A DNA stretch of 25,808 nucleotides from a virus: positions 1-25,808 of the IMG/VR virus record IMGVR_UViG_3300044568_000311, one strand, 5' to 3'. The notes under the pieces are model-generated. The model was not told the DNA's origin. It saw nothing but the letters and a program-made list of their open reading frames with translations, and searched no databases. Position numbers and translations under genes: made by a program. Shown piece by piece: positions 6,014 to 25,442 of the stretch. Position 1 is the first letter of the stretch; each line of letters opens with the position of its first letter.

Positions 6014-7855
6014 TTATCCTATCGATGCACTACTAACTATGTTCCTATCTAATCCTTGCTGTGTTGTTACGTCATTAGCTACTACGTAAGCCTTGATTGG
6101 CTGTTGTCCTTGTTGTGCTATTGTTTCTGCTATTGCGTTTGTTTTTGATGCTCCTACTACGTTTATTGATGGCTGTGCTGATGCAGGTGCTGAAATTGCA
6201 CCCATTGAACCGCCTGCTCCACCACCTCCACCCCCTCCGCCTCCTAAAGCAGCTAATCCTTTTGCAGTTGCAGCTATTGAAGAAGCTACTCCAATACTTG
6301 CACTAATAGTATTTGCAGTTATTGTTGGTGGTGCTAATATAGGACCTAATAATAATGCTTTAGCATTTGCTGCCATTGTATTAATTATAATCTTAGCAAT
6401 ACCCGCTGCATTTTCAGCTATTAATAATCCTTTTTGTATTCCTTTATTTTTCTCAAATACTCCTTTTAATATATTAATACCGCCACTAACTGCATCTAAT
6501 TCTGCATTTCTAATTGCTAATTTAGCATCTCTAAGTGCTTCAGCATCTGCTTTTAATTTATTATTAGTTTCAACTTGATTAGTAACTAAAGCATTATCTA
6601 TTTCTTGCTTTTTAATAGCGTATTCGTTTTCCGCGTCTATTCTTGCTTGTGTTCCTAAAGCAGCACTATCTATTTTAAATTGCAATCTTTCAAGTTCAAT
6701 TCTTTTTTCTTCTTCTAAATTTAACCTTTGATTTTCAAGTTTTTTTAGTTCATCAGTTTCTAAACTTTCGTTAAATTTCTTTTGTTCAATAGCTAAAGCA
6801 TTTAGATTTTCAACTTCGCTTTGTCCTAATTCAATTTTCTCTTTTTGTAAAGAAATACTATTGACTATTTGCTCACTTCTAAAACCCTCTATTTGTGCTA
6901 AAACACCTTCTTTATTTGCTAGTGCTTCGGTTACTGCAACTTGATTTTCAATACTTTTGTTTAAAGCGTATGTTGATTTGGCAGCACTTACTTGTAAATC
7001 AGCTTGTGCTAACATTGCGGCTTGTTGTTTTTCTAATACATCTTTTAATTTATTATTGGCTTTTATTCTTTCATCAATACTTAATAAATCATTGTCTCTA
7101 ATTTGCCTTAATTTTTCAGCTTGTCTGTCATATTGCTCTACTAGCCTACCCTGTTCTGCTGCTGCTAATAACGCTGTATTTTGAAGTTTTATATTTGCTT
7201 CGGATGCTTTAAAAGTTTTTACTGCATAATTTCCAATAGCTTCAGCAGCATCTCCTATCGCTTTTTTACTTCTATCAACTGTATTATTAACGCCTGTTAA
7301 AATGTCAATAGATTCTTTACCTGCTTGTTTAACAGAATCCATTGCACCTGCAAAATCACCTTCAAATACTTTCTTTAATGCACTACCTAAATATCCAACT
7401 GTATCTAAAAACGAATTAAATCTTTCAATTAAATTTTCTTTAATTAAATCACCAAATTTTTGTAAGTATTTTGTAGGGTTTTCAAATACATCTTTAAATA
7501 CTTTTATGACTGCAGGAAAATTATCCATTACAAAGCCAATCAAATCATTAAAAGCAATCGATAAAGCACCAATAGCAGTATTAAATAAATCAACTACCTT
7601 CTGATTTTTTCCTAATATTTCTTTAAATAAATTAAAAGCTTCCATAACTAAGCCAATACCAATAGCTTTAAGGGCTAATCCCATTCCTTTAAATCCATCA
7701 GCCAAAGATTTAACTCCTGCTTCAGCATTTTTAGTTGACTTTTGTATGCCTTTTATTTCGTTAGCAGTATCTTCAAAACTATTACCTAATTTTTCAATAT
7801 CTGTAACTGCTTTGGCTGTATCAACCTTTATTTTAACTTCTACTTCTTGCGACAT
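6014..7855 (-). CDS. Tape measure protein
   Basis: The 613-aa protein sets tail length and is threaded inside the tail tube. It is almost wholly helical. Residues about 1-60 hold a typical start (VEVKIKVDTAKAVTDIEKLG), followed by hydrophobic segments around 53-85 (LALKAIGIGLVMEAFNLF) and 93-125. Long coiled coils cover about 225-460 (for example YDRQAEKLRQIRDNDLLSID). A second hydrophobic stretch (AGIAKIIINTMAANAKALLL) and a run of nine glycines lie near 540. At about 0.15 nm per residue, 613 residues would correspond to a tail near 90 nm, if the whole length counts. The ATG at 7855 lies inside the end of the small upstream gene. Confidence 0.85.
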   Translation of the reverse strand: MSQEVEVKIKVDTAKAVTDIEKLGNSFEDTANEIKGIQKSTKNAEAGVKSLADGFKGMGLALKAIGIGLVMEAFNLFKEILGKNQKVVDLFNTAIGALSIAFNDLIGFVMDNFPAVIKVFKDVFENPTKYLQKFGDLIKENLIERFNSFLDTVGYLGSALKKVFEGDFAGAMDSVKQAGKESIDILTGVNNTVDRSKKAIGDAAEAIGNYAVKTFKASEANIKLQNTALLAAAEQGRLVEQYDRQAEKLRQIRDNDLLSIDERIKANNKLKDVLEKQQAAMLAQADLQVSAAKSTYALNKSIENQVAVTEALANKEGVLAQIEGFRSEQIVNSISLQKEKIELGQSEVENLNALAIEQKKFNESLETDELKKLENQRLNLEEEKRIELERLQFKIDSAALGTQARIDAENEYAIKKQEIDNALVTNQVETNNKLKADAEALRDAKLAIRNAELDAVSGGINILKGVFEKNKGIQKGLLIAENAAGIAKIIINTMAANAKALLLGPILAPPTITANTISASIGVASSIAATAKGLAALGGGGGGGGGAGGSMGAISAPASAQPSINVVGASKTNAIAETIAQQGQQPIKAYVVANDVTTQQGLDRNIVSSASIG

Positions 7856-7990: not shown

Positions 7991-10624
7991 TTAGTCTTTT
8001 ATTAATCTTACCGAGAAACCGCCTTCCTTATTGGTGTAGTATCTGTTAGCATTGCCGTTATTGTAATTCAGGCGGCGGTTCCAGGCGAACGTCGTATCGT
8101 ACTCTGACGAACTCCACCAGTAACCGTAGTAGCCAATGAGGTCGAATGTTCCACTGCCGTTGCGATACCCTCCCGGAAGAGCTGTAAAGCCACTCTCATT
8201 AGTTGCTCCTGTATTAGGACTTTGCCAAAGTGATGTACCTGTTGATTTCATTTTACCTCCTGCAACACTTTCTCCTCCTAAATAGGTGGTTAAAGTTGTC
8301 CATTCGGTGTCTGTAGGAACGTGATAACCTAAAGGTGCTAATCCTCCATTAGCAATATTATTCACAGCATACCAATTATAAAGTTTACCGTAAATAATCC
8401 CATTAGCTGTATTGTTTGCATAATAACACCAAGCACCTGTAGTTAATCCTGCCCAAGCTGTTGGATCTGTAACTTCTGGGATAGGTGTTCCATCTCTATA
8501 CGTTTCAACATCTAGGTTTCTATTAGTCCAAAGTTGTGTTCCTATAAGAACTTCTGTCGCAGGCTCTACTATTCTCTGGTCTGTTAGCAATTCAAACTGT
8601 GCAACTCCTGTTGTTAAATCTGTTGTCATTGTATTAATCAAATACTTTGTGTCTCTTATTAGTATAGTATCATTCAATTTAAGCGTAGTTAATATACTTG
8701 TTGGTAGTATAGCACTAATTTTAGTTAATCGTGCCTTATAATTGAATATATTGGCAAAGTATGCAGAATAGTATTGGTCATATAATCCATTAATTACTAT
8801 ATCATTTGTTAGTGTACTTTGTTGTTCATTAAAATTTAATCCGTATGTTTCACCACTTATTAAAGTTTCTTGTCCGAATGCTTTATAAGTTGTATGTGGT
8901 GTTGATGTTCCACCACTTGTATTTGTGTTGAAATAAAATTGAGGCACGGTTGTCAATGCAGTTGAATTATAATCATATAAAATAACTGGCTTTGGAATGT
9001 ATTTTTGTAAATCTGTTTTTAAAGCATAACCAACTTGCAATAGTCCGGTTAAATTTGAAAAGTTTAAATCCTCAAATGGTAATTTAATTGAATACTCCTC
9101 TCCTTCTGCTGGTGGATTATTTGAATAATGCAAAGAACCATATTCAATTCCATTAGTAGAATTAAAACCTACATTAATTAAAGACTCACTTTTTTCGTAA
9201 TCAAAATTTATTTTTTTATAAGTTTTTACTCGGTTTAAAGTTTTTTTATCTTGAATAACATATTTAGTAATATCTATATCTGAACCATCTAAATAATAAT
9301 TTTCTAATGTATCAACTGTATAATTTATTCCATCTTCTGAAAAACAAGTCAAATTAAACATTTTTAAAATTCCACTAAAGAAATCTTCTATTTTAATTTC
9401 TGGAAAATATTTATTTATTTGTAATGTATATGATGGTGTAGTTTGTGATGCTGAATTTACATAAGATGTTTTAAATATTTGTAAAGGAAAAGAAAATGCT
9501 CTTTCATAAGTAGAATTTGCAACCGCTTGAGTAGTAAAAGAAAATGCTTCAAAAGTACCAATATAAAATTCAAATACATCATTAGTACCAATATTATTAC
9601 CAAGCGGTGATGTAGGACCATCAACAAATCCATAGGTTACACTAACTCCAGCACTTGAAGTTTGTAAATCTGATTTAAATATTTGAATCCCATTTTTAAA
9701 ATAATAAAAATAAAAATCTATACCGCTAACAGACGGTGTTACATAAAAAGTTAATCTTTTATTTCTAAAAGTATAAGTTCCATCAGTTAGTAACGTTGTT
9801 GTATTTGTAATTTTATCAGTTGTTAAATTAGCAGTGTATCCAGTATATGATGTACTATCTCCACTTATTGAAGTAAAATTAACTTTTGTTAATGTTTCTT
9901 TTCTAATAAATTCATCTGCATTATTTAACCATAAATAAGCGTTTGTAAATCTTGCATCAGATAAAAAAGAACCATTAAAATTTAAGTTTAAAATATTATT
10001 ATCATTTGCAATCATATTTAAAACTGCTGATAATTTTATAGCTGGAAATAAGTCATTATATCTTATCGGTGTTCCAGTTGCTGAAATATCATATCCGCTT
10101 CCATATTTCCAAACATTACCCGAAGTAATTAAAGGGAACATTATATTGCCACTGTCGTTGTTATTAATTACTATATTCTTTACAACTGAAGCAGCGTACT
10201 CAAAATCATATGTACTATCAGTTAAATCTTTTAAATATAAACCGTTAAACTTATCTTTTAAATTACCTAATGTTCCAATAAAAGTAATTGAATAATCTTT
10301 CGCTTGTCCATCTTCTACGTTTGCACTTTCAAGTTGTATTTTGCCTCTTCTAAAAGTAATAGTATCTATTTCAATATAAGCGTCTGCTTTTACTAATGTA
10401 CTGAATGGCTCGTCATTTGTATTGTCGTACCAATGTCTGAAAATCTTATTGTTTTGCTTTGATGCCGGTACTACAAATGTCTGTGAAAAATCGGTGTACG
10501 TTTTACTCAAATCATTTATATTTTGTATAGAACTAACTACAGATATTTTTTCGTCATCAAATAAATCTACTCGGTTGTATTGTCCCGTTTGAACATCTTT
10601 TATGTATATGGCTACTGATAACAT
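7991..10624 (-). CDS. Large tail / baseplate protein with C-terminal FISUMP domain
   Basis: The 877-aa protein has an N-terminal structural part (MLSVAIYIKDVQTGQYNRVD, then FSQTFVVPASKQNNKIFRHW) that resembles tail-associated proteins of Bacteroidetes phages, and a beta-rich middle. From about residue 690 it carries a FISUMP domain (Fibrobacter succinogenes major paralogous domain): GTQLWTNRNLDVETYRDGTP, GKLYNWYAVNN, LAPLGYHVPTDTEWTTL, ESGFTALPGGYRNGSG, YWWSSSE, and GGFSVRLIKD at the end. FISUMP domains relate to C-type-lectin/formylglycine-type folds and bind ligands, so host recognition is inferred. The last roughly 60 codons differ sharply in base composition (see finding). It overlaps the upstream gene by one base. 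Confidence 0.8.
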   Translation of the reverse strand: MLSVAIYIKDVQTGQYNRVDLFDDEKISVVSSIQNINDLSKTYTDFSQTFVVPASKQNNKIFRHWYDNTNDEPFSTLVKADAYIEIDTITFRRGKIQLESANVEDGQAKDYSITFIGTLGNLKDKFNGLYLKDLTDSTYDFEYAASVVKNIVINNNDSGNIMFPLITSGNVWKYGSGYDISATGTPIRYNDLFPAIKLSAVLNMIANDNNILNLNFNGSFLSDARFTNAYLWLNNADEFIRKETLTKVNFTSISGDSTSYTGYTANLTTDKITNTTTLLTDGTYTFRNKRLTFYVTPSVSGIDFYFYYFKNGIQIFKSDLQTSSAGVSVTYGFVDGPTSPLGNNIGTNDVFEFYIGTFEAFSFTTQAVANSTYERAFSFPLQIFKTSYVNSASQTTPSYTLQINKYFPEIKIEDFFSGILKMFNLTCFSEDGINYTVDTLENYYLDGSDIDITKYVIQDKKTLNRVKTYKKINFDYEKSESLINVGFNSTNGIEYGSLHYSNNPPAEGEEYSIKLPFEDLNFSNLTGLLQVGYALKTDLQKYIPKPVILYDYNSTALTTVPQFYFNTNTSGGTSTPHTTYKAFGQETLISGETYGLNFNEQQSTLTNDIVINGLYDQYYSAYFANIFNYKARLTKISAILPTSILTTLKLNDTILIRDTKYLINTMTTDLTTGVAQFELLTDQRIVEPATEVLIGTQLWTNRNLDVETYRDGTPIPEVTDPTAWAGLTTGAWCYYANNTANGIIYGKLYNWYAVNNIANGGLAPLGYHVPTDTEWTTLTTYLGGESVAGGKMKSTGTSLWQSPNTGATNESGFTALPGGYRNGSGTFDLIGYYGYWWSSSEYDTTFAWNRRLNYNNGNANRYYTNKEGGFSVRLIKD
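8011..8190 (-). other. GC-rich island in FISUMP C-terminus (candidate variable region)
   Basis: My hand count gives 93 G+C in 180 bases (about 52%), against roughly a third or less in flanking coding sequence. Codons here are unlike the rest of the gene: CCG, GGG, CGC, CTC, GGC, TTC, GCC. Many are NNC (for example TAC TAC GGT TAC, TTC GCC, AAC CGC CGC). It encodes residues about 812-871, the ligand-binding end of the domain. It may be a diversity-generating-retroelement variable region or a recombined domain tail; no template repeat or reverse transcriptase is in the window. Confidence 0.5.
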
Positions 10625-11736: not shown

Positions 11737-11894
11737 TTCGTGTGGTGTATTGTTTGAACTAATACTTCATCTACATATATTTCTTCTTTGCAAGTCCAAA
11801 GGCTAACATATTGCGTTGAATTTATTTCAGCTTCTGCTTCTATTATAAAAGTTGGTATTTCGTCCTGCTCTTTGTATATCTTAACTATGTTCAT
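11733..11894 (-). CDS. Small unknown protein, 53 aa, between neck and tail genes
   Basis: Hand translation: MNIVKIYKEQDEIPTFIIEA, then EAEINSTQYVSLWTCKEEIY, ending VQTIHHTK, stop TGA at 11735-11733. Its ATG overlaps the upstream stop (ATGA) and its stop overlaps the next ATG (ATGA), so it is tightly coupled on both sides. Acidic and beta-like. No family recognised. Confidence 0.62.
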   Translation of the reverse strand: MNIVKIYKEQDEIPTFIIEAEAEINSTQYVSLWTCKEEIYVDEVLVQTIHHTK

Positions 11895-12439
11895 TTTTGA
11901 TTGAAATTAGACTTGATTAAATAATTTACTGTTGATTCTATATCTAAACTAAATGCGTCTGTTATAACGCTTGATAATTGGCTTATATTCTTTTTGACTG
12001 CTTTTTCTAAAAACTTGTTTGGCTCTATACCTTGGTGATAAACTGATTCACGTACCGCATAAGGTGATAATCCTCTTTTGTTTGACCAATCTATAAAATG
12101 TTTAACACTTGGCTTTACACCTTCTTTAAATGAGTATGGTGATCCTTTGCCTTTTTGCTTCCACATTTTGCCCTTATTGTTTGTTCGTTTGAATGCTGAT
12201 GTTTGTTTTCTTACACCACCTACACCTCGAACTCCTTTATCTACAAAAGCACCATATTTTGACATTAAGATATTTATCTCTATTGAATTTTTAGAAACCT
12301 TTGCACCTTGATTTACTAAACTGTTTTTTAATTGCCCCGTATCAACTTTGCCCGTGCTTTCTAAATTAGCTTTTGCATCTTTTACGATGTTATTACTAAA
12401 ATCATTCAAGGCTTGTTTTAGGTTGTCAATCTTTAACAT
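11891..12439 (-). CDS. HK97 gp10-like head-tail / tail completion protein
   Basis: The 182-aa product shows features of the HK97 gp10 family of neck or tail-component proteins: an N-terminal helix LKQALNDFSNNIVKDAKANL, the segment GKVDTGQLKNSLVNQGAKVS, a strand-turn YGAFVDKGVRGVGG, and GSPYSFKEG, then GIEPNKFLEKAVKKNI near the C-terminus. 'VDTGxLxxS', 'YAxxVxxGtxg' and 'PFLxxA' are the usual landmarks; the last is IEPNKFLEKA here. It would join the head connector to the tail tube. It overlaps the upstream gene by 7 bp. Confidence 0.72.
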   Translation of the reverse strand: MLKIDNLKQALNDFSNNIVKDAKANLESTGKVDTGQLKNSLVNQGAKVSKNSIEINILMSKYGAFVDKGVRGVGGVRKQTSAFKRTNNKGKMWKQKGKGSPYSFKEGVKPSVKHFIDWSNKRGLSPYAVRESVYHQGIEPNKFLEKAVKKNISQLSSVITDAFSLDIESTVNYLIKSNFNQK

Positions 12440-12909
12440 TTGTTTATATCGTTTGGTACAGTTAGGTTTATAGTTGTGGTAAATCCTGCTAGCATATTCT
12501 CAAATTCTTTGTTTATGAATTCGCTTTGTGGATCGCCTTCTAATTCCATTGTGTCTATTGCTAATGTGCTTTGTCTTAACCTTGCCACTAATCGATTGAT
12601 TACGTACAGTTGATTTGTCCAGATATAAATTAAATTATCATTGCCGTATATATTGTCTTGTATTACTTCTTTGCTGACGTCTACTATATCTACATTCACA
12701 ATAGTTATTTGAAACGTTAATGAATTTTCACTATGTGTTACGTTGTCCATTGTAATATTAGCAAGTGGAAACATTGTAATCTTTGCCAAATCTAATTCCG
12801 TTAGTTCTCCAAGCGTAACTTTATTGCAGAAAGGGTTTGATTCTAATTCGTCTTTCATTGCTTCAATCACTCTGTAAATCGCTTCTACACCTCTTAAATT
12901 ATCTGCCAT
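12433..12909 (-). CDS. Probable tail terminator / neck protein
   Basis: The 158-aa protein has an N-terminal helix (GVEAIYRVIEAMKDELESNP), then a strand with FPLANITMDNVTHSENSLTF followed by QITIVNVDIVD. The C-terminal region includes FINKEFENMLAGFTTTINLT. A helix followed by 'f-P-l-a-n-I', an 'n-x-l-x-f-x-i-x-i-x-x-v-d' strand and a final beta hairpin resembles small tail-terminator-type proteins. Placement before the gp10-like gene supports a neck role. Its start overlaps the end of the frameshift extension of the upstream pair by 11 bp. Confidence 0.55.
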   Translation of the reverse strand: MADNLRGVEAIYRVIEAMKDELESNPFCNKVTLGELTELDLAKITMFPLANITMDNVTHSENSLTFQITIVNVDIVDVSKEVIQDNIYGNDNLIYIWTNQLYVINRLVARLRQSTLAIDTMELEGDPQSEFINKEFENMLAGFTTTINLTVPNDINKC

Positions 12910-13162
12910 TTCTTCTCTGTATTTTTTTTAGTTCTTCAGCTTCTTTTTTTCGTTTGTCAATCTTGTAACAAAGGTTGTTTAAACAAGTATGCATATTTAA
13001 TTGTTCAACCGCTTCATATCTTGTAACGTCTCCTCCAGCAAGTTCGTCAATTGTGCTATACCAATTCCAGTTGATGTCAAATTGAGTTGGCTCTGAAAAG
13101 TCTCCTCCTCCGTCTCCAAATACTTGATAATAGATGCTAGTAAGTCCGTTCCTAAATTCCAA
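12899..13162 (-). CDS. -1 frame extension of tail assembly chaperone (T-like part)
   Basis: This 87-codon frame has no good start: the first usable codon is TTG at 13162, inside a run of nine T, and the first ATG comes two thirds of the way in. It overlaps the upstream gene by 166 nt in the -1 frame. The protein FDINWNWYSTIDELAGGDVT, RYEAVEQLNMHTCLNNLCYK, then IDKRKKEAEELKK matches a known style of phage chaperone C-terminus ('WY-x-x-x-x-x-L-a-x-G-D-x-x-k-x-e-x-v', 'l-n-x-l-x-y-x-x-x-K'). It is probably made as a 252-aa fusion by slippage. Its stop lies within the start of the next gene, whereas the unshifted stop leaves an 87-nt gap. Confidence 0.7.
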   Translation of the reverse strand: MEFRNGLTSIYYQVFGDGGGDFSEPTQFDINWNWYSTIDELAGGDVTRYEAVEQLNMHTCLNNLCYKIDKRKKEAEELKKIQRRNGR

Positions 13163-13656
13163 AAAAAAACCATCGAACCTATTACCGCACTAAGTGGCAT
13201 TTGTCTTAATTGTTTGTGATACTTGTCTCCTTCGTATCTTTCAATATTATACATTCCGTTTTTTATTTCTTGCTTTATTGGTCTGTATAATACGCCCATT
13301 GCTATATGCATATTGCTCCACTCGGATATATTACCATTCAAATCTAATAATTCCCCGTAAGTCATTTTATCTAGTTCTGGTAGCCATCCAAACTTTACAC
13401 CATCGATTGTAAACTTCTGCACTAACTCGGGTTGGCTTTCTAATATGCCGTCTAAAATCTTTGATATGTTTTCTACTGATTCATATTCTAAATTTAATAC
13501 CTGTTCACGTGATAGTTTGCAAAATATTTCAATCTTTTTTATCTTTAAATATTCCTCAGCATCAGGTAGCTTTTTTCTACTTTCAATTTCTTGGTTGTAT
13601 TCTTGATATTGGATCAGTGTGATGTCGTCTAGTGAACTTGGAACGGTTAGCTTCAT
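12997..13656 (-). CDS. Tail assembly chaperone-like protein (G-like part)
   Basis: The 219-aa product starts MKLTVPSSLDDITLIQYQEY and contains MTYGELLDLNGNISEW and MHIAMGVLYRPI, patterns I associate with tail-assembly-chaperone-region proteins of Bacteroidetes phages. At residues 162-166 (MVFFW) the DNA reads GTT TTT TTT TGG, giving a T TTT TTT slippery heptamer in frame. A -1 slip there swaps the last 54 residues for 87 residues of the overlapping frame. This is the layout of lambda G/GT, though here the pair precedes the neck genes rather than lying next to the tape measure gene. It has a candidate late promoter upstream and opens the late tail operon. Confidence 0.65.
   Translation of the reverse strand: MKLTVPSSLDDITLIQYQEYNQEIESRKKLPDAEEYLKIKKIEIFCKLSREQVLNLEYESVENISKILDGILESQPELVQKFTIDGVKFGWLPELDKMTYGELLDLNGNISEWSNMHIAMGVLYRPIKQEIKNGMYNIERYEGDKYHKQLRQMPLSAVIGSMVFFWNLGTDLLASIIKYLETEEETFQSQLNLTSTGIGIAQLTNLLEETLQDMKRLNN
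13161..13169 (-). promoter_or_regulatory. Slippery T9 site for programmed -1 frameshift
   Basis: Minus-strand ATGG, nine T, GGAA. The T TTT TTT heptamer occupies 13168-13162 with the two TTT codons in the zero frame. A -1 slip makes the next codon TTG at 13162 and opens the frame ending at 12899. Transcriptional slippage on the T run would have a similar effect. Confidence 0.65.
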
Positions 13657-13715: not shown

Positions 13716-13740
13716 AAAAAAAAACACCCCGTTAGGAGTG
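13716..13740 (-). terminator. Rho-independent terminator after moron-like cassette
   Basis: Minus-strand CACTCC, loop TAAC, GGGGTG (6 bp, one G-U pair), followed by nine T (13724-13716). It starts 26 nt after the stop of the 70-aa gene and isolates it from the late operon. Confidence 0.88.
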
Positions 13741-13766
13741 CTTTAAATGCGTTGTGTTGTTTTAGG

Positions 13767-14286: not shown

Positions 14287-15441
14287 CTATCTAACTGCAT
14301 ACTTCCCGTAGTTAGGTCTGGCTAATTTATCATATAAACCGTAACGGATCGCATCAATCGTGTGGTTGAACATATCGACTGGCACATTTAGAATGTTTCC
14401 GTTCTTATCTTCCTGCCATTTGTAGTTTCTAAATTCTTTTATCATATTAACTGAATCCTTTGTAACGTGAAGTTGGTACCGTTTCATCATATCAATACCG
14501 ATGTTAACCGATCCTTGTCCTTTTGTAGCTGGTTTTATATTCCAACCCATACGATATAACTCTTCAATTGATTTTGGCTCTGCTGAATCTGCAAATACTT
14601 CTTTGCGTTCTATTTCATTAAACTTTAACTTTTCGTCTATGTCTTTATTGGTTAGTCCTGTTTGGTATAATAGCTCTTTTAGATAAATGTTATCACCTTG
14701 CTGATAGATAGCCACCAAAGTTGTTGGATCATTCGTAAATCCAAAGTCCATACCATAAGATAAAAACTTTGCTTCACCTGGTATTGCGTTACATTCGTTA
14801 ATACGGAATATTAAAGCCTGTGATGAACCAATTTGACCTTGCCCGTATATTTTCCAATAGTTCTCATCTATGTTCTTTAATCGCTCTATTTCGGCTATTA
14901 TTTCTTTTGATAAAAATAAATTGTCTTTGTACGTTGTGATGTAAAAATCTGCATCGTCTCTGGGCTTTATCTTATCGTAAATGAAATGAAACTCATCACT
15001 TGGGTTGTAATCTAAAATTGCCTTTTCAGTTGTTCTAAATATTAACTGTTGCCAGTCTTCAAAGTATAGTTCGTTGGCTTCATTGATATATAAAACATCA
15101 CGTTTGCGACCTCTTACTTTTTGCGGCTGATCTAAAGATATAAACTCAAATAGGTTGCCTTCTAACTTGTATTCTGAATTGCTCTTGTTATGGTCTTGCT
15201 CTTCGTACATATCGTAGTGTCGTAGTATATCGAAAAAGTCTCGCATTGAACTTGCCCGAAGTGAAGGATATGTTTTTCGGCAAATGGTTATTGTTTTGCC
15301 TTTGTTCTTTAAAGCATAGCCAAATATTAACCACATTAAAATATTATAGGTTTTACCGCTTCTGGTTCCTCCTTGCTCTATTGTTATTCTCTTTGTTGAA
15401 TTATCTAAATGCTCAAATACTTTATTAGTCTGTATCTTCAT
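14287..15441 (-). CDS. terL: Terminase large subunit (TerL)
   Basis: The packaging motor cuts concatemeric DNA and pumps it into the prohead. The 384-aa product has Walker A GGTRSGKT at 24-31, a Walker B region DVLYINEANELYFEDW, and coupling-type motif FRTTEKAILDYNPSDEFHF. The C-terminal RNase H-like nuclease shows YGMDFGFTNDPTTLVAIY (first acidic residue), EVFADSAEPKSI, and MFNHTIDAIRYGLYDKL (last acidic residue). This order is typical of PBSX/Terminase_6-type large subunits, and the length is slightly short but complete. It overlaps terS by 17 bp. It is followed by about 130 nt without a gene that holds a promoter for the next cassette. Confidence 0.93.
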   Translation of the reverse strand: MKIQTNKVFEHLDNSTKRITIEQGGTRSGKTYNILMWLIFGYALKNKGKTITICRKTYPSLRASSMRDFFDILRHYDMYEEQDHNKSNSEYKLEGNLFEFISLDQPQKVRGRKRDVLYINEANELYFEDWQQLIFRTTEKAILDYNPSDEFHFIYDKIKPRDDADFYITTYKDNLFLSKEIIAEIERLKNIDENYWKIYGQGQIGSSQALIFRINECNAIPGEAKFLSYGMDFGFTNDPTTLVAIYQQGDNIYLKELLYQTGLTNKDIDEKLKFNEIERKEVFADSAEPKSIEELYRMGWNIKPATKGQGSVNIGIDMMKRYQLHVTKDSVNMIKEFRNYKWQEDKNGNILNVPVDMFNHTIDAIRYGLYDKLARPNYGKYAVR

Positions 15442-15796
15442 CTTTTGGCTTTAGTATTTCTACTTCAAACTTTCGCACCTGATGGCTGTTTTCACTTTCA
15501 ACAAACTGCATACTTAATTTTTTGCGGTCTTCATCTTCACATAAAACTTTAAATGCTGATATTTGTAAAGTTGCATTATCTGAACCCACCCACTTGTTAA
15601 GCATATAAGATACTGCTTTGCTTTTGTTCTTTGATATCGCTTCTTTAATACTCTCCGATTTATCCAATTCTAAATTATAAAACTGTGAGTGTTGTAAGTC
15701 AGTATAGTGTTGAAAAATATGATTTATTTTCATTACTTTATTCTTTATAACTATTTCAAGTATTTCTTTTTCGTGTTGCTCTTTTGTCTTTCCCAT
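15425..15796 (-). CDS. terS: Probable terminase small subunit
   Basis: The 123-aa product lies directly upstream of terL and overlaps it by 17 bp. A small, helical, charged protein in this position is usually the DNA-recognition subunit. Sequence landmarks are KEQHEKEILEIVIKNKVMKI, FQHYTDLQHSQFYNLELDKS (which may be the HTH-like part), and a C-terminal helix EDEDRKKLSMQFVESEN. Direct family recognition is weak; the call rests mostly on position. Its start overlaps the end of the methyltransferase gene. Confidence 0.7.
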   Translation of the reverse strand: MGKTKEQHEKEILEIVIKNKVMKINHIFQHYTDLQHSQFYNLELDKSESIKEAISKNKSKAVSYMLNKWVGSDNATLQISAFKVLCEDEDRKKLSMQFVESENSHQVRKFEVEILKPKDEDTD

Positions 15797-17052
15797 TATA
15801 TTACTATTCCGTTTCTTTTGATTATTAATGTATCATCAAGTTTTTTCATTCGGTCTATTATTACTTGGCAATATTTCGGGTCTAATTCCATTCCGTAGCA
15901 TTTGCGTTTAAGTTGATGTGATGCTACCATTGTTGTTCCACTTCCGGTAAATGGTTCAGCAATCAAATCACCTTCATTTGTTATTGCTTTAATGTATTCA
16001 GATGGCAATTCTATTGGAAATGTAGCAGGATGTTCTTTTCTTATTTCACCTAATTCTGGATTTGAATAAAAAACAGATTCCATTTCTTTTAATGCACCTT
16101 GAAATCCAACAGTAGAATTTTTCATTGAACCATCTGCTTGTCTTACTTTTCTATGCGTTCGACTTTCTTTTATCGCAGTAGACCTTTCTTGTGTTCTATT
16201 TATATCTTTAAATTTTTTGCCAAACACAAATATCCATTCGTGTGAAATTGGAAAAAAAGCAGATTGATTGCCTATTGAACCAGCAGAAGGTTTTGCCCAA
16301 ACATTCCAACTTAAAAACTTATACCCGTTATCTCGTGCTTTTATAATGTAATCATTCCAATATTCATTTATGTCATTGTCTTTTCTTTGAATACCTAAAT
16401 TGATAACTTGATATTCACAATACTCATAAAATGAAGTTATAAATTCAACTAAATTATTTACAGACAAATCTTTATTGCCATTATATTCTCTCATATCTGA
16501 ATATGGAGGTGATGTGAATAATAATTCAGCCTTTTGCCCATCCATTAACTTTGCAACTGTATCGGAACAAGTACTATCACCACAAAGCAAACGATGCTCT
16601 CCTATCTCAAATAAATCACCTAAAACAATATCAGTTTCAATTCCCCCTTCTGGCACTTCAAACTCATCCTCTTCTGCTTTTAAAACTTCATCATATCCCA
16701 AAGGCAAATCCAATCCCCAATCTTTTAAATCATTTGCATCCCATTCATTCGCTAACATATCCCAATCCCACTCTCCACCGCTTACATTGTCTTTAATTAA
16801 AAACTCTTTTTGTTGCTCTTCAGTTAAGTCTGTTATAATTATAGGTACTTCTTTTAATCCAGCTTCTTTGCAAGCCTTAAAACGCATATTACCGCCTAAT
16901 ATAACCATTTCTTTATTAACTACAATAGGTCTAATCTTTAGCATTTCTGGAAAGTCTTTGACTGACTGAACCAGCTTTTTAAACTTGTCATCTTTTATCA
17001 ACCTCGGATTGTTCGGGTTTACTTTTACTTCTGATATTTTTACTACTTGCAT
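15796..17052 (-). CDS. ParB-like domain fused to DNA N4/N6 methyltransferase
   Basis: The 418-aa protein has two domains. Residues about 1-115 are a ParB/Srx-type domain: VNPNNPRLIKDDKFKKLVQS, IRPIVVNKEM, and the signature GGNMRFKACKEAG (53-65). Residues about 145-400 are an amino-methyltransferase with catalytic motif TSPPY (180-184) before the AdoMet-binding motif FTGSGTT (368-374), the beta-class order. ESVF, HPATFPIELP and LDPKYC lie in the expected places. Such phage proteins modify phage DNA and can protect it from host restriction; the ParB part may act in DNA binding or as a nuclease. The base modified (N6-adenine or N4-cytosine) cannot be told from sequence alone. Confidence 0.88.
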   Translation of the reverse strand: MQVVKISEVKVNPNNPRLIKDDKFKKLVQSVKDFPEMLKIRPIVVNKEMVILGGNMRFKACKEAGLKEVPIIITDLTEEQQKEFLIKDNVSGGEWDWDMLANEWDANDLKDWGLDLPLGYDEVLKAEEDEFEVPEGGIETDIVLGDLFEIGEHRLLCGDSTCSDTVAKLMDGQKAELLFTSPPYSDMREYNGNKDLSVNNLVEFITSFYEYCEYQVINLGIQRKDNDINEYWNDYIIKARDNGYKFLSWNVWAKPSAGSIGNQSAFFPISHEWIFVFGKKFKDINRTQERSTAIKESRTHRKVRQADGSMKNSTVGFQGALKEMESVFYSNPELGEIRKEHPATFPIELPSEYIKAITNEGDLIAEPFTGSGTTMVASHQLKRKCYGMELDPKYCQVIIDRMKKLDDTLIIKRNGIVI

Positions 17053-24045: not shown

Positions 24046-24077
24046 AAAAAAAAATCCTCAACATTTCTGCGGAGGAT
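24046..24077 (-). terminator. Rho-independent terminator after ninG
   Basis: Minus-strand ATCCTC, a 12-nt loop, GAGGAT (6 bp), followed by eight T (24053-24046). It begins 56 nt after the ninG stop and separates it from the early unit. Confidence 0.82.
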
Positions 24078-24132: not shown

Positions 24133-24687
24133 CTACTTTATTTGTTTAATCAGTATATCGTACTTTAATTTTTTAGCTATTAATTCCTCCTTGCTAAATT
24201 TGTAGTTTCTTTTACTATCTGATTCGCTTTCTAATTGCTCTACAAACTCATTACCGTACCGTTTAATCAATCCTTTTCTATATTCCAATAGATTGCCAGA
24301 AAGATGTTTATTACAGTGTGTATTGCATTGCTTATGGCAGTTCCTTTCATCAAACATAAATCCACTATACATTCCAGCTGAATAATAATGCCCGCCTGCC
24401 CAATCATTTGTTTTTGAATTGTTGCAGGAAATGCAAGGTAAATTTTTATCTCTTAACCTGATCCAATGCTGAAAGCTTTTTTTAGCATCTTTCTCATATT
24501 CAGAAAGTGTTTTAATTTTATCTTTAATTATTTTCTTTTCTGCTTTCCATTCTTTTTGCTCTTTCTCTTTCTGTTTGTTCTTTGCAAGTTGAATGGCACA
24601 TTTATAATCGCAGGTTTGTTGATTGAACCTTTCTAGTACAAATTTTTGACTGCAAACTTTACATTTCTTCAACTTGATTTCTTTCAT
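24133..24687 (-). CDS. ninG: NinG / Rap-type recombination nuclease
   Basis: The 184-aa protein fits lambda NinG (Rap), a Holliday-junction nuclease active in phage recombination. Visible marks are an N-terminal zinc-ribbon-like CKVCSQKF...CDYKC, a Lys/Glu-rich helix, FQHWIRLRDKNLPCISCNNS, GGHYYSAGMYSGFMFDERNC, then HKQCNTHCNKHLSGNLLEYR with the His/Cys cluster, and a C-terminal Lys-rich helix. The start shares its ATG with the stop of the endonuclease (TAATG). It works with ERF and the SSB-like protein encoded downstream. Confidence 0.9.
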   Translation of the reverse strand: MKEIKLKKCKVCSQKFVLERFNQQTCDYKCAIQLAKNKQKEKEQKEWKAEKKIIKDKIKTLSEYEKDAKKSFQHWIRLRDKNLPCISCNNSKTNDWAGGHYYSAGMYSGFMFDERNCHKQCNTHCNKHLSGNLLEYRKGLIKRYGNEFVEQLESESDSKRNYKFSKEELIAKKLKYDILIKQIK

Positions 24688-25442
24688 TATGTATATATAT
24701 AATTAGTATTGTTTTTTAGCCTTCCAGATAATCTATCTGTAAAATATCTATAATTTTTTTTATAAATTTTACATAATTCTTTAATAGTATAATAAATTCC
24801 ATTTTGAGTATCTAAAACAATTTTTATATTTGATAAATATATATTTAATTTATGCTCTTCAGATAATTTTTTACCAGTATGTGATAAAGATAATTTTTGT
24901 TTATGTTCTTCAGAAAGTTTTGTTCCTTTTTTAGATAAACTCATTTTTAATATTGATTTTTCTGAATGCTTTCTACCTTTTCCAGATAAACTTATTTTTA
25001 ATTTATGCTCTTCAGAAAGTTTTTTTCCTAAATTATGTTTATTTCCTTTGCTTGATTTGCTAATTTTAACTTTAGCTTCATCAGTATGTTTTTTACCTAA
25101 ATTTTTTCCAATATTAGATTCTTTTATTTTAATTTTTGTAAACATACTTAAATGACCAGATTTATCTTTAGATGTCGTTAATCTACAATTTAATCCTTTT
25201 CCATTTAATACTGAATATAAATCTTGATAATATCTTTCTTTGTCATTTAATTCTTCAATATTACATTCACATAATATTTCAAATTTATGTTTAGTAATTC
25301 CATATTTTAAAAAAGAATTATATAAGGCTCTTTGACTTTTACAATTATTTAATTTATATGTTTTAAATCTTTTTTCAATATTTACACTTTGTCCAATATA
25401 TATTCCTTTTGTGGGATTTGTAATTTTATATATACCTATCAT
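24687..25442 (-). CDS. Free-standing GIY-YIG homing endonuclease
   Basis: The 251-aa protein has GIYKI (3-7), GIYIGQS (13-19), NIEKRFKTYK with Arg25, and an ERYYQDLYS helix, which are the GIY-YIG nuclease core. Residues 116-204 hold about five NUMOD3 repeats (GKKLSEEHKLKISLS type), which wrap along DNA. The C-terminus (QNGIYYTIKELCKIYKKNYR) resembles a NUMOD1/IENR-type DNA-binding segment. Such enzymes copy themselves into alleles lacking them. It is even more AT-rich than its neighbours and sits immediately before ninG, with no split gene visible, so it appears to be inserted between genes. A structured leader lies upstream. Confidence 0.9.
   Translation of the reverse strand: MIGIYKITNPTKGIYIGQSVNIEKRFKTYKLNNCKSQRALYNSFLKYGITKHKFEILCECNIEELNDKERYYQDLYSVLNGKGLNCRLTTSKDKSGHLSMFTKIKIKESNIGKNLGKKHTDEAKVKISKSSKGNKHNLGKKLSEEHKLKISLSGKGRKHSEKSILKMSLSKKGTKLSEEHKQKLSLSHTGKKLSEEHKLNIYLSNIKIVLDTQNGIYYTIKELCKIYKKNYRYFTDRLSGRLKNNTNYIYT
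24831..25097 (-). repeat. NUMOD3 repeat array within homing endonuclease
   Basis: About five related 16-20 residue units (GKKHTDEAKVKISKSSKG; GKKLSEEHKLKISLSGKG; GRKHSEKSILKMSLSKKG; GTKLSEEHKQKLSLSHTG; GKKLSEEHKLNIYLS) produce visible DNA repeats. They are DNA-binding modules. Confidence 0.85.

Follow-up and report, generated by a model that had tools for sequence, protein, structure and literature searches.

The locus described here raises the question of how a gene that carries an in-phase run of nine Ts is read, whether into one protein or two, and, if the frame is switched, whether it is the ribosome or the RNA polymerase that slips and what the products do. Chaperone pairs produced by a frame switch are a textbook feature of phage tail assembly, and the documented pairs are, to our knowledge, ribosomal. 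The locus lies in a 25,808-nt stretch of viral DNA (IMG/VR record IMGVR_UViG_3300044568_000311, positions 1 to 25,808), referred to below as the window. From the sequences compared in the present study we favour, with a probability of about 0.6, a programmed -1 switch that is mostly transcriptional and that provides a chaperone-like pair resembling G and GT of phage lambda. The locus would then specify two proteins, G (219 aa, from unshifted reading) and GT (252 aa, from a -1 switch at the nine Ts). The switch would be made mostly at transcription, by an RNA polymerase that stutters on T9 or T10, and mRNAs with one extra U (U10 for U9) would be read straight into GT and be coupled to the next gene, while unslipped mRNAs would give G. 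The two proteins would act as a pair of assembly chaperones in tail building, with G the commoner. The features concerned are collected in Table 1.

Table 1. Positions of the G/GT locus and neighbouring genes, numbered along the window.
Feature	Position	Strand	Remarks
Terminase large subunit	14287..15441	minus	Upstream of G/GT, with a 70-aa ORF and a terminator-like element between
Gene G	12997..13656	minus	219 aa, unshifted reading; PHROG 32199, a family without function label
Dual-coding part of G		minus	Last 54 codons, 3' of the slip site
T9 run, GG-TTTTTTTTT-GG	13161..13169	minus (A9 on plus)	Putative slippage site
In-frame heptamer T TTT TTT	13162-13168	minus	Within the T9 run
T frame	12899..13162	minus	87 codons (LEFRNGL...RRNGR), entered by the -1 switch; PHROG 38404, a family without function label
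Next gene	12433..12909	minus	158 aa, PHROG 30964; overlap of 11 nt between its start (ATG) and the end of the T frame
182-aa gene	11891..12439	minus	Similar to 'tail completion or Neck1 protein' (PHROG 5), E = 3.9e-7
Likely tape measure protein	6014..7855	minus	613 aa; matches two PHROGs with structural or unknown label

At the run, G reads ATG GTT TTT TTT TGG AAT TTA, and the fused product GT consists of 165 + 87 = 252 residues, of which the first 165 are common to G and GT. The first-pass annotation had described the T9 run and its heptamer, the 87-codon frame, the 166-nt overlap of that frame with G and the 87-nt gap between the unslipped G stop (at 12997) and the next gene; all are exact on the window sequence, and the slipped frame does end within the start of the next gene, as it had also stated. 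An AF2 model of G has pLDDT values of 90–98 over residues 1–170 and low values from about residue 187 on. The remaining runs of at least nine Ts in the window (24046-24054, 13716-13724 and 1166-1174) all lie in or beside intergenic DNA. A terminator-like element at 13716-13745 (minus strand), with a CACTCC...GGGGTG stem followed by T9, is situated about 60 nt upstream of the start of G, and so G may open a late transcription unit.

The first search for relatives gave 44, with identities from 100% down to 31%, and one of its six peptide patterns touched the slip site, at the protein level only. Further scans used queries lying only downstream of the run or only upstream of it, as well as distant seeds, and so it was not the site itself that picked out the loci. 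All 45 sequences of the first set, counting the window, have T9 in phase, and the wobble positions next to it vary. Across all readable loci it is T9 (276) or T10 (79), in phase, in 355 of 355, including those found with queries that end before the run or start after it. Runs of eight or fewer Ts, or of 11 or more, were seen at the site in none of the 355, so that T7 and T8 are absent though the heptamer would allow them. Some of these loci come from the same contig as overlapping pieces; at <80% protein identity, 116 lineages are left. A naive estimate from the genes' own codon usage puts the chance of finding GTT TTT TTT in all of 49 lineages at 9e-32, and the T run is conserved far beyond chance.

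The group is a large one of aquatic phages, most if not all of them phages of Bacteroidota. One cultured relative was found, Nonlabens (Persicivirga) phage P12024S, in which T9 occurs as CTT TTT TTT TAT (C-T9-A), with the residues L and Y where the window has V and W. A search for the family in 396 genomes of the order to which a Flavobacterium MAG belongs returned one match, that already-known genome, which suggests that the family resides mainly in free viruses and is rare in sampled genomes. Several observations on individual loci were made in passing. A class B relative (L205) is on a contig binned as Campylobacterota (an 'Epsilonproteobacteria' MAG), either through an error of binning or because its host lies outside the Bacteroidota. 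Two metagenomic copies carry breaks that are probably assembly errors, one an in-frame stop in G (L015) and the other a frame break upstream of the run (L135). On the coding strand of loci L002-L200, runs of at least nine As number 18 in 1.07 Mb versus 236 runs of at least nine Ts; the latter amount to about one per locus and are mostly the slip site.

Both readings past the site are open. The T frame extends for 81–93 codons in 338 loci, and the unshifted tail is open for 48–67 codons beyond the site in 49 of 49 lineages, compared with 4.7% of controls in which the T-frame codons were resampled with the genes' own usage. At the third position of the T frame, which is the second of the G frame, the fraction that differs is 0.31 in the overlap, versus 0.41 in T past the overlap and 0.52 in G upstream. 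As judged from these patterns, selection acts on both frames, and with them on both C-terminal ends. P12024S departs from this, its unshifted tail being only 25 codons long, which implies that the unshifted tail in the form seen here is not needed everywhere.

That the T frame has no proper start of its own, as the first-pass annotation had it, holds for the group. An ATG near the junction occurs in this frame in one of the 116 lineages, and a start codon of any kind is absent there in 44. Among the relatives there was no T gene with an ATG start and no stop in the T frame, the two features which that annotation had set against its own reading. Independent translation of T could be proposed for the window, where the -1 ORF has a single start near the junction, a TTG at 13162; however, this TTG is made by the T run itself, the codon is TTA, TTT, TCT or TCG in 74 of 116 lineages, and full-length fused homologues exist, so that with ATG so rare a separate start for T is very improbable. 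The start of the next gene follows the T frame closely: in 80 of 106 cases it forms ATGA with the T stop (offset -4), and in 13 of 106 the offset is -1. It overlaps the G stop in none, the latter lying a median of 76 nt upstream. Because it is the stop of the T frame that overlaps the ATG, the next gene would be coupled to T and not to G, and reading into T may also deliver the ribosome to the next gene, as part of the control.

The fused reading has counterparts in nature. A profile of fused GT aligned to single-frame proteins over 236 columns, with the junction aligned (hhalign probability 98.4%, E = 8.7e-15). These proteins are carried by Flavobacterium phages 2A and laban6-1, Cellulophaga phage Ingeline, Polaribacter phage Leef and a Microcystis phage. 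In three of the five genes the two phenylalanines at the junction are encoded by a plain TTT TTT with non-T neighbours (T6), and the other two have no T run at all. The Duneviridae members (PHROG 25418: 2A gp12, laban6-1 gp17 and Ingeline gp5) are homologous over the whole length of GT, but they are encoded in one uninterrupted frame, with T6 at most at the junction and no need of a frame switch, whereas the loci of the present group have T9 or T10 and the switch. Together these comparisons show GT to be a sensible polypeptide, and the long T run to accompany the split form.

Such single-frame forms in distant relatives, together with the error-prone nature of homopolymers, could also be taken to mean that a one-base indel had split a single gene, by assembly error or by decay. 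This was rejected as hardly credible, since the same split recurs in hundreds of independent contigs and in a cultured phage, and the unshifted tail is under selection. Flavobacterium phage 6H gp10 was considered as a further frame-switched case and was likewise rejected, being a break in one phage whose close relatives carry the whole gene. This gene (L210, 10352-10927) is cut short in comparison with its close relatives; 2A, for instance, has the ~293-aa form (PHROG 25418). The remainder of the 6H gene lies unannotated in another frame, through either a natural break or a sequencing error. The programmed -1 switch put forward in the first-pass annotation is strongly supported by T9 or T10 in every locus, by the open T frame and by the fused homologues; at the level of sequence, the comparisons have shown a conserved switch with both ends selected, a T frame lacking a start, and a GT that is uninterrupted in distant relatives.

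Slippage by the polymerase had been mentioned at first only as something that would look similar. The likeness is real, in that the identical peptide, VFFLEFR, results whether the mRNA carries one more U or the ribosome slips by -1, so mass spectrometry across FF-LEFR, proposed earlier as a check, cannot separate the two; but the evidence favours the polymerase over the ribosome. A ribosomal -1 slip needs the heptamer, that is seven Ts, while the polymerase needs run length. The run occurs in five registers: NTT TTT TTT TGG (T9), TTT TTT TTT TGG (T10), TTT TTT TTT CTG (T9), ATT TTT TTT TTG TGG (T10) and AGT TTT TTT TTT CGT (T10). At least seven changes of register were counted on the tree, a FastTree reconstruction with many weak forks, and throughout them the run length stays at 9–10. 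Wherever Ts were lost on one side, Ts were gained on the other. The 3' T was lost in two classes, each with one origin, and the 5' side gained Ts in both; a 5' side of that length is found in about 12 of 116 lineages, and if the two sides were independent the two events would coincide by chance with p ~0.01 (an estimate). It appears, then, that run length and not codon register is conserved, with modest power, as there are only two independent losses of a 3' T. In vivo, runs of nine As or nine Ts are sites of efficient slippage by bacterial RNA polymerase, whose RNA-DNA hybrid is 9–10 bp long (PMC5009743).

Downstream RNA structure was looked for in 55-nt windows beginning +2 to +20 past the run in 25 lineages, by folding without pseudoknots, and the mean z values were -0.06 to 0.11. 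Given that the Ts always number at least nine, that the register slides and that RNA structure is not conserved, slippage of RNA polymerase is likely the leading mechanism, ahead of ribosomal -1 slippage. There are two caveats. The rule of at least nine Ts largely follows from the heptamer plus the flanking residues (V, L, I or F before, W or Y after), and a longer T run also offers ribosomes more registers in which to slip.

The ribosomal alternative, in which two tRNA-Phe would slip on T TTT TTT much as in lambda G/GT and the two extra Ts would merely encode neighbouring residues, is a credible but distinctly less probable reading. It has in its favour that the in-frame heptamer is kept in every locus, that most of the extra Ts are supplied by those same flanking residues, and that tail genes of lambda and of many other phages are known to use this mechanism (PMC5009743). 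The F. johnsoniae prfB gene carries a +1 frameshift (PMC8710568), which implies that the ribosomes of Bacteroidota can be programmed to shift. The ribosomal reading does not, however, account for the lack of T7 or T8 among 355 loci, nor for the addition of Ts on the other side after loss of the 3' T (CTG, CGT) or a move of the run by one codon upstream, and a conserved downstream structure is missing. A stimulator of the Shine-Dalgarno type is also unlikely, as the anti-Shine-Dalgarno is occluded in the ribosomes of Bacteroidia (PMC8710568).

What the slipped and unslipped products do is less easily deduced. The first-pass annotation had called them tail chaperones, and for that claim the one direct hint is a weak match of folds, while neither a family assignment nor the position of the genes, away from the tape measure, bears it out. 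Searches of G and T against Pfam gave no match, and comparison with PHROGs gave no chaperone family. A sequence search of the PDB with the G profile produced chance matches only, and fold searches of the PDB with the G model (Foldseek, VIA-align) produced nothing beyond helical bundles that matched the long C-terminal helix. In BFVD the G model matched P12024S gp38, Flavobacterium phage 6H gp10 and many proteins of uncultured phages, and weakly one annotated tail assembly chaperone (E 0.013, prob 0.99, TM 0.35-0.39).

The late genes of the window lie on the minus strand, in the order TerL, a 70-aa ORF, G/GT, the 158-aa gene, the neck-like 182-aa gene, genes of 370 and 877 aa, and tape measure. 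G/GT is thus not between the major tail protein and the tape measure genes, the likely tape measure being the fifth gene downstream; one of the two PHROGs matched by the latter is that of a P12024S protein which also matches a tape-measure PHROG. Three other genes of the window, all on the minus strand, deserve mention. The 877-aa tail-region protein (7991-10624) has a complete C-terminal Fib_succ_major (FISUMP) domain (PF09603, E = 7e-44) and is possibly an adhesion tip. Directly upstream of a small terminase-like gene there is a fusion of a ParB-like N-terminal part to a DNA methyltransferase (15796-17052), and a 251-aa protein (24687-25442) resembles, by eye, a GIY-YIG homing endonuclease with repeated DNA-binding motifs.

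By analogy, G and GT are probably a tail assembly chaperone pair, an assignment that comes mainly from the two-product design and from the lack of another candidate. Frame-switched pairs of tailed phages with a common N-terminal part are mostly tail chaperones, and ahead of the tape measure gene the window showed no other candidate pair. The switch could instead be real and the pair something else, such as a neck or connector protein, or another protein of assembly, that comes in two forms. The surroundings would suit this, as the locus comes just after the terminase in the window, or soon after the adaptor gene in Ingeline (whose fused, single-frame form lies between the adaptor and tape measure genes), with a ~150-aa gene and neck-like genes downstream; the tape measure gene is several genes away and no chaperone family is matched. 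Against it stand the usual nature of such pairs, the want of a rival pair and the fold match to an annotated chaperone, and we regard a non-chaperone role as rather unlikely.

A -1 frameshift is reportedly conserved in the tail assembly genes of dsDNA phages (Xu, Hendrix and Duda, 2004). With lambda G/GT, the present locus has in common two products that share an N-terminal part, a -1 switch that adds an alternative C-terminal part, and a compact late operon. The lambda-like layout proposed in the first-pass annotation holds in its switch and alternative C-terminal part but not in gene position, which here is after the terminase and several genes before the tape measure gene, whereas that of lambda is before the tape measure gene. 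In the family searches the likeness was not matched by any sequence homology. The slip site is a T9 or T10 homopolymer and not the lambda heptamer, G GGA AAG, and past it there is a dual-coded G tail of 54 codons. P12024S gp38 and gp39 (PHROGs 32199 and 38404) are the same pair, with T9 and a -1 tail just after the terminase, but the record has them as two separate hypothetical proteins with no frameshift annotated, and the unshifted tail is 25 aa and not 54 codons.

Programmed transcriptional slippage has been described for mxiE and spa13 of Shigella and for dnaX of Thermus (PMC5009743). As proposed here, the slippage site of these genes is within the coding region and heterogeneity of the mRNA leads to a second C-terminus; in Shigella there is an effect on the next gene, and Thermus dnaX has a nine-base run. 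Those are cellular or plasmid genes, whereas the present case is a phage morphogenesis gene in which a run of at least nine has been kept across hundreds of phages while its codon register changes.

The principle of the G/GT pair and the nine-A/T slippage device are each already known. For a T-run switch in a tail chaperone, no earlier description was found in the open-access literature searched. Nor was the combination of the two in one large phage group, with a run length that is kept, a register that slides and a dual-coded tail, found in that literature. We would give even odds that this group of Bacteroidota phages sets the ratio of its two chaperones by polymerase slippage at T9 or T10, with selection acting on run length while the run slides between codons. 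PHROGs 32199 and 38404 can be understood as two halves of one protein, linked to PHROG 25418. It appears that a large phage group, most of it uncultured, retains the design of two products with the switch moved to RNA polymerase, in hosts whose ribosomes depart from the usual mode of Shine-Dalgarno pairing.
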